Part shown: positions 1 to 31,479 of the stretch, piece after piece | Layout of the letters: each line of letters starts with the position of its first letter | Numbering within the stretch: position 1 is the stretch's first letter | NCBI RefSeq assembly: GCF_014696615.1 | Contig: NZ_JACJQJ010000058.1 | Span: 1 to 53,231 of the forward strand | DNA length: 53,231 bases | Direction: 5' to 3' | DNA from: Nostoc linckia FACHB-104 | Lineage (GTDB): Bacteria; Cyanobacteriota; Cyanobacteriia; Cyanobacteriales; Nostocaceae | Notes under the pieces: model-generated | What the model saw: only the letters and a program-made list of their open reading frames with translations | The model's database searches: none | Told to the model about the DNA's origin: nothing | Position numbers and translations under genes: made by a program

Positions 1-24
1 GGCAATGAATCAATTTAAACCCTG

Positions 25-726
25 TTATGCTTCTGGATGATTTAGCTTTTTTACTATTTGCTTACTCCGGAGAGTGACAGAAGAGGGGTAAGTATGAAAG
101 TGTTTTTTGAGAATCTTTTCTAAATCTTCGCAAGAATCATTTGTATTGCCAAATATTCCTTTAGCATTGTATGTACGCATTAATTGTCTAGCAAATAAGT
201 TGTGCGATACTCCTTTGCCAAGAATGGTTGTTCCGAATATAACACCATCATCCTTAAGCAATGTTTTGAGATTTTTTAAAATAATCTCTTTGCTCAAGAT
301 ATTATTACCAGGAAGACAATGCAATAAGTAGTTGATTCCAATCGAATCAAAACTTGTTGGTTCTAGAGGCAATGGTTGGAAAACATCAGCAAGAAAAGAT
401 GTTGGCTTATATCGATGTATACGCTGCGATGTAATTTCAAGACTGTTAGGATTTAAATCTACTAAGGAAATTATAGAATTAGGGGTGGGAAACTTACAAT
501 TATCTAAAAAATAGCCAGTTCCTACTCCTACATCTAAGTGTTTAGCAGAGATGTGTTGGTTGTAAAATTCAAGAATTAATTTAGTTGGGCATTTCCAGAA
601 AAATGTGTTTGATAAACCTAGTACGAAAAAGTCATAAATCATCAGAAGAGATTTACTGTAAATAGCTGCACCTAGACTGCTATCACTAGTAATTTCTCTG
701 TTTTGATTAGCCTGATCATATTTCAT
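25..726 (-). CDS. class I SAM-dependent methyltransferase, substrate unknown
   Basis: A protein of about 233 aa with a Rossmann-type SAM-binding core. The glycine-rich motif I reads LDVGVGTGYF, an acidic motif II (LVDLNP) follows at the usual spacing, and the post-motif region SFDSIGINYLLHCLPG resembles motif IV. The C-terminal third is lysine-rich and not recognisable. I prefer the ATG at 726; the frame is open to a GTG at 759 (11 more residues) and neither has a clear ribosome-binding site. It stands alone on the minus strand, next to stress or detoxification-type genes and upstream of the phycoerythrin island. The fold is fairly sure; the substrate cannot be read from the sequence. Confidence 0.7.
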   Translation of the reverse strand: MKYDQANQNREITSDSSLGAAIYSKSLLMIYDFFVLGLSNTFFWKCPTKLILEFYNQHISAKHLDVGVGTGYFLDNCKFPTPNSIISLVDLNPNSLEITSQRIHRYKPTSFLADVFQPLPLEPTSFDSIGINYLLHCLPGNNILSKEIILKNLKTLLKDDGVIFGTTILGKGVSHNLFARQLMRTYNAKGIFGNTNDSCEDLEKILKKHFHTYPSSVTLRSKQIVKKLNHPEA

Positions 727-1161
727 TGTTTTTGGGTGATATTTTTTAAAATATATCACTCAAACAACTTGTAACCGTTCAGAGGATTTAGAATTGCGAT
801 CGCTTTGGTAATCACTGCTTAACCTCTAACTGATAAATCTGCATCGATGCCTGTTCATCCATCATCCGCCAGTAATACCCAGTGGGCAGAGATTATACCC
901 TACCAACACAACCGTACAGAAATGCAACTAAGCTGTTACGCATTTAAATTGTGTATTTCGCACTCAGGTTGTCAAAAGTCAAGAGTCCAAAGTCCAATCT
1001 AGCCTTTGACCCTGGACTATTGACCCTTGACAGTCCTAACGCCAGAATATTTGATTTAGGTGCGTATCAGCTTATTACTAGGATTCCTATTTGATTGGTT
1101 GCAATGGACTGCGACCTAAAAATACCATTACAAAAGAATATAAATCAGTCAACAATACTAT
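727..1161. other. intergenic region with an inverted repeat
   Basis: There is no gene here. At 971-1031 an imperfect inverted repeat (arms beginning GTCAAAAGTCAAGAGTCC, with the matching arm ending at 1031, about 15 of 18 pairs) could fold into a hairpin made of short GTCA/GTCC blocks. This is typical of dispersed repeats in Nostocales. A HIP1 site lies near 797. Both flanking genes point outwards, so promoters for both should be here, but none was clear. Confidence 0.4.
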
Positions 1162-1470
1162 ATGTCTAAACTGTTTGCCGTTGTCGTAGCCACTGTTCCA
1201 GAGTATTACGAGTATAAAAAGACTCATCCAGAACATGACCAAGACCAACTGGCTTGGTTTCGTGAGCAGCAGGAGAAAGGAATACTTCTGTGCTGCGGCC
1301 CGTTTTTTCCCCACGATGGAACGGGGCTGTGGGTAATTCAGGCGGAGAATTTAGAAGCGGCTCAAGCCATTGTCAACAGTAGCCCCCGTGTACGAGATGG
1401 GATGTTAGCGGACTCTGCTAGAGTTGTGGAGTGGCAGGTTCATATTGGACATCAGCGTTTTGAGAGGTAA
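1162..1470 (+). CDS. YciI-like (YCII domain) protein
   Basis: A 102-aa protein matching the YCII family of small dimeric alpha/beta proteins. It opens with a beta strand (KLFAVVVATVP) and has the family's HPEH..QLAWF segment with histidine and acidic residues, the central GPFFPHDGTGLWVI turn and the C-terminal ADSARVVEWQV strand. Family members are small enzymes or binding proteins of mostly unknown substrate. The length is the family's usual 95-105 aa. It has no partner gene in the same operon, and the next gene starts 220 bp downstream. Function beyond the fold is not inferable. Confidence 0.75.
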   Translation: MSKLFAVVVATVPEYYEYKKTHPEHDQDQLAWFREQQEKGILLCCGPFFPHDGTGLWVIQAENLEAAQAIVNSSPRVRDGMLADSARVVEWQVHIGHQRFER

Positions 1471-29174: not shown

Positions 29175-29369
29175 ATGAAAGAAACCGCCGCACAGATATT
29201 ACTCCGCACTGCTTTGAGATTCCACAAAATTCGCGATTTAGAAATGCCAGAGATTAAACGTCTTATGGCTTTAAGTGAAGAAGAGTTTGAAAGCGAATTC
29301 TCTAGGATGAAATCCCAAGGACTTATACCAGCAACTTCACCCTTAGTATTTCCCCATTCAAAACAGTGA
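29175..29369 (+). CDS. small hypothetical protein beside the recombinase
   Basis: A 64-aa frame, basic and helical in its first half (MKETAAQILLRTALRFHKIRDLEMPEIKRLMALSEEEFESEFSRMKSQG). It overlaps the 3' end of the convergent serine recombinase by 47 bp. Small helical proteins next to large serine recombinases sometimes are recombination directionality factors, but no resemblance to known ones was seen. It could be a remnant or chance frame; codon content in the first 50 residues looks coding. Confidence 0.4.
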   Translation: MKETAAQILLRTALRFHKIRDLEMPEIKRLMALSEEEFESEFSRMKSQGLIPATSPLVFPHSKQ

Positions 29370-30690
29370 CATTTTCTACCAATTCTTGGTAAATTGCTCT
29401 TTTATCCTTGTTAGTTAAGCTTTCCCAATATTTCCTGTTGCCAAAGCAGGTGGACAAAGTAGTTACTAAAGCAACATTAATTTGGATAGTAGTAACTTCT
29501 CTTTGTTTGATTGTTTGAATCTCTAGCAGCGTTTGGTCAATAGCTGATTGAATAATCGGGTTTTGGGGCATCTGCCGTAGCATTTTCAATTGTTCGTATC
29601 TGGTAGTGAGTTCTGGACTATCTGCCGGAACTTCAATACTTTCTAGGGTGTAATTTTTAACTTCTTCATATCGATCAGTTAAAGCAGCATCTACAACTGA
29701 AATAATATCTGGCAGGTACGTACTAGTTTTATTCTTACAGAAAGCATCTCCTAGATTTTCATGTTTTTTGCATCTAACTCTATGAGTTGACCACTTAGTT
29801 TTTTTACAAAAACATTGATAACCACAGTCACCACAAATAATTTGTCCTAATAAGGGTAATTCCTCTTTAGTACTATTTTTGTTGTTGCCGTAACTGTACT
29901 TATGTCGGTTTTCTGCCAATTTTTTCTCTATATGTTTAAATTTATCGTGAGAAAGTAGCGGTTCATGAGTGTCTTGATATACTTCCCACTTTTCAGGTTT
30001 GTTGAGATTACCTCGCATATTGTAAGCAGTATGCCCTCTTAGTACTGGGCTAGTTAGCCAATACTTCAATCCGGCCGCTGTCCATGAAATTCCGTAAGTA
30101 TTTAGTATATAAACTGCAGTACTTCTTAATGTGGCGTTGTCAGATAAGAAATAATCAATGATATCAGATGCGATCGCCCAATGAGATTTACCAGATTCGT
30201 GCAATGTCATATCTGGTGCATATTTCTCATTTACCCTCTGATACCCAAATGGCGGACGGGGGCTGGCTTTCTTCTGTTCTCGAAAGTAATTTAATCCATG
30301 CCGAATTCGATCTGAAAGTAATCTCGATTCAAATTCTGCCAAGCCTGCCATTTGATTCACAGAGAACCATCCAAAAGGCGATGATGGATCAACTGGGGCA
30401 TCAAGAACTACTAACTTAACTCCATACTCTTCCAATGCTACAAGGGTGCGATGAATCGTGATTACACTCCGTGCTAAACGATCTATGCGAGTAATTACAA
30501 TTTCCGTTATTTTCCCTTGCTTGCACATGGTAAGCATTTTATTAAATTCTGTGCGTTTATCTGACCTTCCAGACTCAACATCTGAAAAGATCAAAATCGC
30601 GCCAGCCTTTTCAATCCGGGCTGTTTGCTGTTCTAGTGCGTCTGTATCTGCCTGTTCTCTTGTGGATACTCGGACGTAACCTACCCGCAT
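29323..30690 (-). CDS. large serine recombinase (XisF-like), likely nifH-element excisase
   Basis: A 455-aa large serine recombinase. The N-terminal resolvase domain (1-145) has the nucleophile Ser9 in YVRVSTREQ, with Arg7, and the TRIDRLAR block with Arg68 and Arg71. A Recombinase domain (about 160-265) follows, and then a zinc ribbon with Cys286, Cys289 (ICGDCG), Cys307 and Cys318, and a C-terminal coiled-coil and tail. GGGGAG precedes the ATG. It is of the same class as XisF of the Anabaena fdxN element. Its start is 40 bp from the nifH junction and it reads away from nifH, the expected place for the enzyme that removes the element in heterocysts. That target is inferred from position. Confidence 0.92.
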   Translation of the reverse strand: MRVGYVRVSTREQADTDALEQQTARIEKAGAILIFSDVESGRSDKRTEFNKMLTMCKQGKITEIVITRIDRLARSVITIHRTLVALEEYGVKLVVLDAPVDPSSPFGWFSVNQMAGLAEFESRLLSDRIRHGLNYFREQKKASPRPPFGYQRVNEKYAPDMTLHESGKSHWAIASDIIDYFLSDNATLRSTAVYILNTYGISWTAAGLKYWLTSPVLRGHTAYNMRGNLNKPEKWEVYQDTHEPLLSHDKFKHIEKKLAENRHKYSYGNNKNSTKEELPLLGQIICGDCGYQCFCKKTKWSTHRVRCKKHENLGDAFCKNKTSTYLPDIISVVDAALTDRYEEVKNYTLESIEVPADSPELTTRYEQLKMLRQMPQNPIIQSAIDQTLLEIQTIKQREVTTIQINVALVTTLSTCFGNRKYWESLTNKDKRAIYQELVENVTVLNGEILRVKLLV

Positions 30691-30730
30691 AACTCCCCAT
30701 TTATTTACTGACCACTTTGTTAATCATACA

Positions 30731-31479
30731 CCACCCGTTTGATGCTCCATGCTAAAGCTCAAACCACCGTTCTTCACTTGGCTGCTGAACGCGGTGCAGT
30801 TGAAGACTTGGAACTCGAAGAAGTAATGCTGACCGGTTTCCGTGGTGTTAAGTGCGTAGAATCTGGTGGTCCAGAACCCGGTGTAGGTTGCGCTGGTCGT
30901 GGTATCATCACCGCTATTAACTTCTTGGAAGAAAACGGCGCTTACCAAGACCTAGACTTCGTATCCTACGACGTATTGGGTGACGTTGTGTGCGGTGGTT
31001 TCGCTATGCCTATCCGTGAAGGTAAAGCACAAGAAATCTACATCGTTACCTCTGGTGAAATGATGGCGATGTACGCTGCTAACAACATCGCTCGTGGTAT
31101 TTTGAAATATGCTCACTCTGGTGGTGTGCGTTTAGGTGGTTTGATTTGTAACAGCCGTAAGACAGACCGGGAACACGAACTCATCGAAACCTTGGCAAAA
31201 CGGTTGAACACCCAAATGATTCACTTCGTACCTCGTGACAACATCGTTCAACACGCAGAATTGCGTCGGATGACTGTTAACGAGTACGCACCCGACAGCA
31301 ACCAGTCTCAAGAATACCGCGCATTAGCTAAGAAGATCATCAACAACGACAAACTCACCATTCCAACACCAATTGAAATGGATGAATTAGAAGCACTGTT
31401 GATCGAATACGGTATCCTCGACGACGATTCTAAGCACGCAGATATCATCGGTAAGCCAGCAGAAGCTTCCGCTAAGTAA
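30731..31479 (+). CDS. nifH: nifH 3' part (nitrogenase Fe protein), 5' part separated
   Basis: Native NifH from about Thr49-Arg50 onward ([21 protein letters not shown]...). The frame continues to a stop at 31479 with 246 residues from the leucine at 30739, so with about 50 missing residues the whole is the normal ~296 aa. The Fe4S4 ligands (GVGCAGRG and [10 protein letters not shown]) are present, but the P-loop GKGGIGKS and switch residues before it are not, so this piece alone cannot work. The first 5' codons are replaced by the end of an element with a recombinase. The frame is intact and shows no decay, which argues for a gene restored by excision and not a pseudogene. Confidence 0.93.

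Follow-up and report, generated by a model that had tools for sequence, protein, structure and literature searches.

A phycoerythrin gene cluster as probable cargo of a nifH excision element in Nostoc linckia FACHB-104

One known variant of the nifH interruption element sits at position 150 ± 7 of the gene and comprises element #1 of Anabaena sp. 90 together with two further elements (Hilton et al. 2016, PMC4874684; Wang et al. 2012, PMC3542288). Whether interruption elements bring any advantage to the host is called a mystery in the text of Hilton et al. Here we analysed a window of 53,231 bases, the entire contig C136 of the Nostoc linckia FACHB-104 genome (G000; 9.39 Mb in 181 contigs), which carries genes for phycoerythrin (PE), the orange carotenoid protein (OCP) and NblA to the left of a truncated nifH gene (nifH1). 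Window bases 1–30732, an insertion sequence (IS) and ~1.34 kb of a second contig, C169, very probably constitute one position-150 nifH element, whose excision would remove the PE genes in heterocysts.

The nifH gene of the window lacks its 5´ side. A first-pass annotation of this DNA had taken nifH to be native only from about 30731 rightward, and a profile search agrees, placing the start at 30733 (PF00142 positions 42–270 of 271). The same annotation had reasoned that, should the missing 5´ fragment lie further left in the same orientation, heterocyst development would excise the PE locus. A profile search of the genome contigs located this fragment, 144 bp in length, on the minus strand of C169 (G000:C169:1282-1464), where it is preceded by a globin gene and nifU (both named from reading the sequence). 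In alignments to the nifH element of Nostoc carneum NIES-2107 (G013), window base 89 and C169 base 239 fall on adjacent bases; the two alignments overlap by 2 bases, which corresponds to the target duplication of an IS. The window and C169 each terminate in inverted, similar copies of one IS terminus, and N. carneum has an intact, empty site where the IS sits in G000; therefore, the assembly broke at an IS inside the element, between C136 and C169. From the TA duplication, we take this IS to be IS630-like. The G000 element thus comprises 1,338 bases of C169 and 30,732 bases of the window, with the IS interior not counted. C169 adjoins the left end of the window, and both nifH halves are co-oriented on one contig of Calothrix membranacea FACHB-236 (G015), which supports the left boundary anticipated by the first-pass annotation. 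When the halves were joined in silico at CC, a 296-amino-acid NifH was obtained in all three genomes (G000, G013 and G015); the G000 protein is identical to that of G013, and the G015 protein differs at 2 residues. The ratio of nonsynonymous to synonymous substitution rates (dN/dS) of the nifH 3´ fragment between the window and G015 is 0.034, which indicates strong purifying selection on the split nifH1.

The first-pass annotation had also noted a serine recombinase next to the nifH junction. This gene (29323–30690) lies on the strand opposite to nifH, and its product is of the XisF type, passing the NCBIfam XisF equivalog cut-off (553.6 bits versus 375). It is 97% and 98% identical to its counterparts in G013 and G015, respectively, with a dN/dS of 0.075 between the window and G015, and Dolichospermum-type relatives split at the same nifH site carry a recombinase that is 65% identical. 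Six peptide patterns of the recombinase, used as a weak test of phage origin, gave no match in viral contigs. The left end reads GACTCC/element, and at the right the element ends ACACC/ACCCG. In G000, the inner arms of the two ends, compared as an inverted repeat, agree at 16 of 22 positions; when random pairs are given the same freedom of offset, 2 of 20,000 do as well. This register was chosen after a first test, two bases out of register, had given 9 of 24 matches, which 2,724 of 20,000 random pairs reach. The corresponding matches in other genomes (without random controls) are 15 of 22 in G015, 15 in G013, 14 in Nostoc sp. 106C (G017) and 17 in G193.

The PE/OCP insert is delimited by the switch of homology between the chromosomal PE loci and the nifH element of N. 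carneum; its left edge falls between 2828 and 3138 and its right edge between 29073 and 29089 (Table 1). The first-pass annotation had listed a whole PE set to the left of nifH. Family models identify CpeT, two CpeS-like lyases, three rod linkers, PebA and PebB, CpeY, CpeA, CpeB, the fluorescence recovery protein (FRP), OCP and NblA, the last passing in Pfam only. The names cpeC, cpeD, cpeE and cpeZ follow from position, the cpeF-like protein falls below every NCBIfam cut-off, and cpeR is unconfirmed, as the open reading frame (ORF) in its place matches no Pfam or NCBIfam model. G000 and G015 contain one cpeA copy each. PF00502 has 16 matches in G000. Three belong to the element, namely cpeA, cpeB and an allophycocyanin-like paralogue; the remaining 13, of which two come from a single long frame, are on other contigs. 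Thus, further phycobiliprotein genes lie outside the element. Among 24 PE-region genes tested, a set that omits three further ORFs at 8300–10637, 23 were found in G015, with dN/dS values of 0.028–0.196. No replication gene was recognised among the scanned element proteins; ORFs 25–759 and 1692–2183, which were not scanned against the family library, and 10077–10637 fall outside this set. A repeat of ~125 bp at window 22224–22348 has many copies in G013, G014, G015 and G018, with ~84–98% identity among the matches listed, and is a possible site of rearrangement.

The arrangement recurs in C. membranacea. On one G015 contig, the nifH 3´ part (88681–89367, minus strand), the recombinase (89407–90771), cpeA (92730–93221) and the nifH 5´ part (116891–117067, minus strand) follow one another; the co-oriented nifH halves are 27,577 bp apart, with the recombinase and a collinear PE cluster between them. 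The G015 element is collinear with window 1073–32097 at 91–98% identity (~25 kb in nine pieces), although it lacks the 8.2–10.8 kb region of the window and the methyltransferase gene. A match of this length to an independent assembly means that chance is not an issue. The 35,442 bp element of N. carneum, whose nifH halves are also co-oriented on one contig, has the same ends as the window element and none of the 24 PE-region genes tested; the two elements have only the two ends and the GST segment in common. It carries a type I-D CRISPR-Cas system instead (7 of 7 proteins tested: Cas1, 2, 3, 4, 5, 7 and 10; L055 128-9691), a defence that N. carneum heterocysts may lose through excision. The searched text of the N. 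carneum genome paper (PMC8634303) contains no occurrence of 'nif', 'rearrange' or 'element'.

Among eight same-genus genomes, G000 and G015 have their PE genes within the nifH element. G013 has the element without PE genes, which are chromosomal, and in G012 and G014 the PE genes are chromosomal and nifH is not split at the 144-bp site. G017 has the element (halves on two contigs) and no cpeA, while G016 and G018 have neither. In G018 and G014, the same flanks surround an uninterrupted nifH, which provides natural empty sites. A nifH piece starting at this same site was found in 12 of 17 relatives examined, namely the seven same-genus genomes and ten chosen for high recombinase scores. Across 217 family genomes, an XisF-like recombinase (E <= 1e-30) is present in 71 and cpeA in 92. 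Lists compared by eye place cpeA within 60 kb of an XisF-like recombinase on the same contig in three genomes: G000, G015 and G063. The G063 recombinase borders the 3´ part of a nifH gene but the element runs away from cpeA, so that this candidate was rejected and 2 of 92 are left. This count is a minimum, since many contigs are short and the survey covered serine-recombinase elements, leaving tyrosine-recombinase elements outside it, including any around the chromosomal PE loci of G012–G014. As a separate observation, co-oriented nifH pieces ~102 kb apart in another genome (G047:C1:4239233-4341307) delimit a very large nifH element.

In a tree of the rpoB region (12 genomes, one locus), G018 pairs with G015 (ultrafast bootstrap 95), and both belong to a clade that includes G000 (100), with G013 and G014 as its sister clade. 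The simplest reading is that PE genes entered the element once, in the ancestor shared by G000, G015 and G018, and that element and PE genes were then lost together in G018, where the best match to the YCII/GST segment of the element is a 67% paralogue that is also present in G015. PE blocks lie at three places in G013 (932–939, 955–959 and 1,723–1,736 kb), at three in G014 and at two in G012; so at least two segments converged inside the element. Since G012 holds cpeCDE, the kinase and pebAB/OCP together in one region, the segments that were joined may in fact number two (this region and cpeBAYZ), and the polarity of PE clustering is only partly settled. The DNA beside cpeBA in G013 (940–955 kb) is found on C152 and C49 in G000, outside the window. 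Contrary to the rpoB tree, the synonymous divergence (dS) of cpeA and cpeB of G000 is 0.071 and 0.046 to G013 versus 0.172 and 0.153 to G015. The values to N. carneum are far below those of the neighbouring cpeY (0.206) and cpeZ (0.258), which perhaps reflects recent exchange or gene conversion.

In the mechanism that we propose, the serine recombinase would act at short crossover sites that have inverted arms on their flanks, and recombination during heterocyst differentiation would restore nifH1 and release the element as a circle. Chromosomal PE, bilin-synthesis and OCP genes would have become cargo in the ancestor of G000 and C. membranacea; as cargo, they would be kept by vegetative cells and lost from the chromosome in heterocysts. 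Hilton et al. (PMC4874684) place excision late in heterocyst development; it would thus not trigger the breakdown of phycobilisomes, but it could render the loss permanent. Loss of a cargo product would have its best precedent in CYP110 of the Anabaena 7120 nifD element, for which the abstract reports no detection in heterocysts and the results significantly fewer gold particles (PMC1079853). The cargo in G000 is a nearly complete pathway that photosynthetic cells need, and its excision is expected in heterocysts, the cells in which the antenna is run down; if so, heterocysts would lose their red-antenna genes for good. Such cargo and expected excision make the question of host benefit testable, by comparing strains that carry the PE genes within the element (G000, G015) with strains that carry them elsewhere (G013, G014). 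Germ-line excision of the element would also be a concrete route to phycoerythrin loss.

The case for this element comes from the sequences themselves: its anatomy, the orientation in a relative, the reading frame, purifying selection and natural empty sites. Several points weigh against it. We infer the left join in G000 across a contig break, and no contig with a repaired nifH1 is present in the G000 assembly. Of the short direct repeat that the first-pass annotation expected at the junction, exact crossover identity extends only to CC (ACTCC versus ACACC) in G000, G013 and G015; longer repeats are present in some relatives. Heterocyst timing, circle formation and loss of expression we infer from the biology of the family. 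In the text of PMC4046671, which does not mention phycoerythrin, heterocysts of A. variabilis still transcribe phycobiliprotein genes, so DNA loss of antenna genes is no general heterocyst need; likewise, more heterocyst antenna raised nitrogenase activity in high light in Anabaena 33047, as described in PMC8689445. An assembly artefact or an inversion, with the PE region not between the nifH halves of G000, nevertheless deserves almost no credence: G000 is a draft whose left join crosses a contig break, but G015, an independent assembly, shows this arrangement on a single contig, and an IS with an empty site in G013 explains the break. Inversion instead of excision is ruled out for the relatives, as the halves are co-oriented on one contig in both G015 and G013. 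A dead element, in which nifH1 is never repaired and another nifH serves, is very improbable. The first-pass annotation had considered such use of a second intact nifH, and intact copies do exist on C42 and C123. The C123 copy sits in a second Mo-nitrogenase cluster (G000:C123:41911-53554) with nifB, S, U, D and K and a fused nifEN-like gene (names partly by sequence reading), which we take to be nif2-type from its gene order. That cluster is separate, however, its NifD and NifK being 83% and 76% identical to the split copies, whereas nifH1 bears the selection noted above, the joined NifH1 is identical in G000 and G013, and the recombinase and its sites are conserved.

Whether excision matters for the antenna is a distinct question. 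The PE genes may be neutral passengers that arrived by chance and whose loss is without consequence in heterocysts, where phycobilisomes are already run down; we consider the chances of this to be about even. Cargo does vary, as the CRISPR-Cas genes of the G013 element illustrate, and the PE genes seem to have been inserted once and then inherited; against this, at least two chromosomal segments had to meet inside the element, and nearly the whole PE pathway is there, with no cpeA outside. The excised circle could also persist and still be transcribed, heterocysts keeping their PE genes so that excision matters only for nifH. The excised nifD element is a circle, which counts in favour of this possibility. 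Heterocysts of Anabaena 33047 hold phycobilisomes, as reported in PMC8689445. We regard persistence as rather unlikely, given the absence or scarcity of nifD-element CYP110 in heterocysts (PMC1079853) and the lack of a replication gene among the scanned element proteins (three ORFs unscanned). The selective reading, that selection gathered scattered PE, bilin-synthesis and OCP genes into the element for somatic elimination of the red antenna, and that a heritable excision in G018 repaired nifH and erased PE in one step, is offered tentatively, as a conjecture that may well fail.

Other nif genes nearby are rearranged. nifD is also split (window 31631–33013 and 48377–50058), with a break near 33004 and the 3´ end near 50058 by sequence reading, and a weakly scoring tyrosine recombinase lies at 48377–49795; this makes a nifD element of ~17 kb. 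nifK (50286–51590) breaks off at 51590, and C111 holds a nifK-like 3´ piece (G000:C111:64409-78164; names from synteny). Two nifE-like halves on C111 are oppositely oriented, a pattern that would fit recombination between nifK and nifE elements with inversion of the intervening DNA. On C169 (L019 4839-6401, 7664-19930), a further serine recombinase and a 4,088-amino-acid open frame beside nifS (sequence reading) suggest an fdxN-type element.

Table 1. Features of the nifH element and its cargo in the window (window coordinates; aa, amino acids).
Feature	Position	Strand	Basis or remark
End of insertion sequence	1–88		Similar termini, inverted, on window and C169; G013 site empty; transposase not scanned
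Ancestral element genes: methyltransferase-like ORF, YCII, ORF 1692–2183, GST	89–2830		Also in G013 nifH element
PE/OCP insert	2831–29080		Homology switch between G013 chromosomal PE loci and G013 nifH element
ORF in cpeR position	3163–3525	-	No Pfam/NCBIfam match
cpeT	3503–4201	-	PF06206
cpeS	4435–4983	-	PF09367
Three rod linkers, cpeE/cpeD/cpeC by position	5174–5932, 6251–7000, 7041–7901	-	PF00427 and PF01383
Ankyrin protein and DUF2656 protein	8300–9647	-	Region missing from G015 element
PAS/GAF histidine kinase and response regulator	10901–13404	+	
Phycobilisome-domain protein	13449–14051	-	Nearest allophycocyanin models, below their cut-offs
DUF1838 protein, HEAT protein, pentapeptide-repeat protein	14258–17210		
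Second CpeS-like lyase	17498–18142	+	PF09367
pebA	18336–19067	+	NF009720, 373 bits vs cut-off 263
pebB	19136–19885	+	NF009723, 498 bits vs cut-off 327
HEAT-repeat protein, cpeF-like by first-pass name	20289–21230	+	Best models NblB, CpcE, below cut-off
frp, fluorescence recovery protein	21588–22031	-	PF18032
ocp, orange carotenoid protein	22387–23346	-	PF09150
Methyltransferase	23618–24811	-	Beside PE genes in G014; not found in G015 element
HEAT lyase-like protein, cpeZ position	24886–25503	-	No NCBIfam equivalog above cut-off
cpeY	25521–26810	-	NF058505, 777 bits vs cut-off 600
cpeA	27049–27543	-	NF058506; sole genome copy at E <= 1e-60
cpeB	27623–28177	-	NF058508
nblA	28546–28713	-	PF04485 66.7 bits (cut-off 25); NCBIfam 37.7 bits, below cut-off 100
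XisF-type serine recombinase, 455 aa, predicted excisionase	29323–30690	-	NF041201 553.6 bits; PF00239 and PF07508
Right recombination site, attR-like	30709–30736	+	nifH contains the outer arm; inner arm resembles the left site on C169 in inverted form
nifH1 3´ fragment	30733–31479	+	PF00142 match; remaining 5´ 144 bp on C169

No account of antenna genes within an excision element was recognised in the literature searched, which lay outside most subscription journals and supplements. To our knowledge, the SPbeta and skin elements of Bacillus subtilis are prophages or prophage-like and carry no antenna or comparable pathway as cargo. They resemble the G000 element in that a differentiating cell rebuilds a gene, spsM or sigK, by excision (PMC4191935, PMC5025042). 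The fdxN element of Nostoc/Anabaena 7120 has a similar XisF-type recombinase but interrupts a different gene, and no XisH or XisI was found among the G000 element proteins scanned with Pfam (the genome itself was not searched for them). The recombinase of the nifD element, XisA, is of the tyrosine type. The nifD element of Anabaena 7120 is likewise an excision element whose gene product, encoded by cyp110, is absent or scarce in heterocysts (PMC1079853), but the studied product is one P450, in contrast to the antenna pathway in G000. The closest relatives, the position-150 elements, share the insertion site (144 bp here and a first part of 153 bp in Anabaena 90) and a recombinase on the opposite strand, but differ in cargo, the main text of Hilton et al. 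containing no mention of phycoerythrin, phycobili- or cpe. The G000 element very probably represents a known type, the position-150 nifH element, with PE, OCP and NblA genes that we did not meet as cargo in the literature searched.

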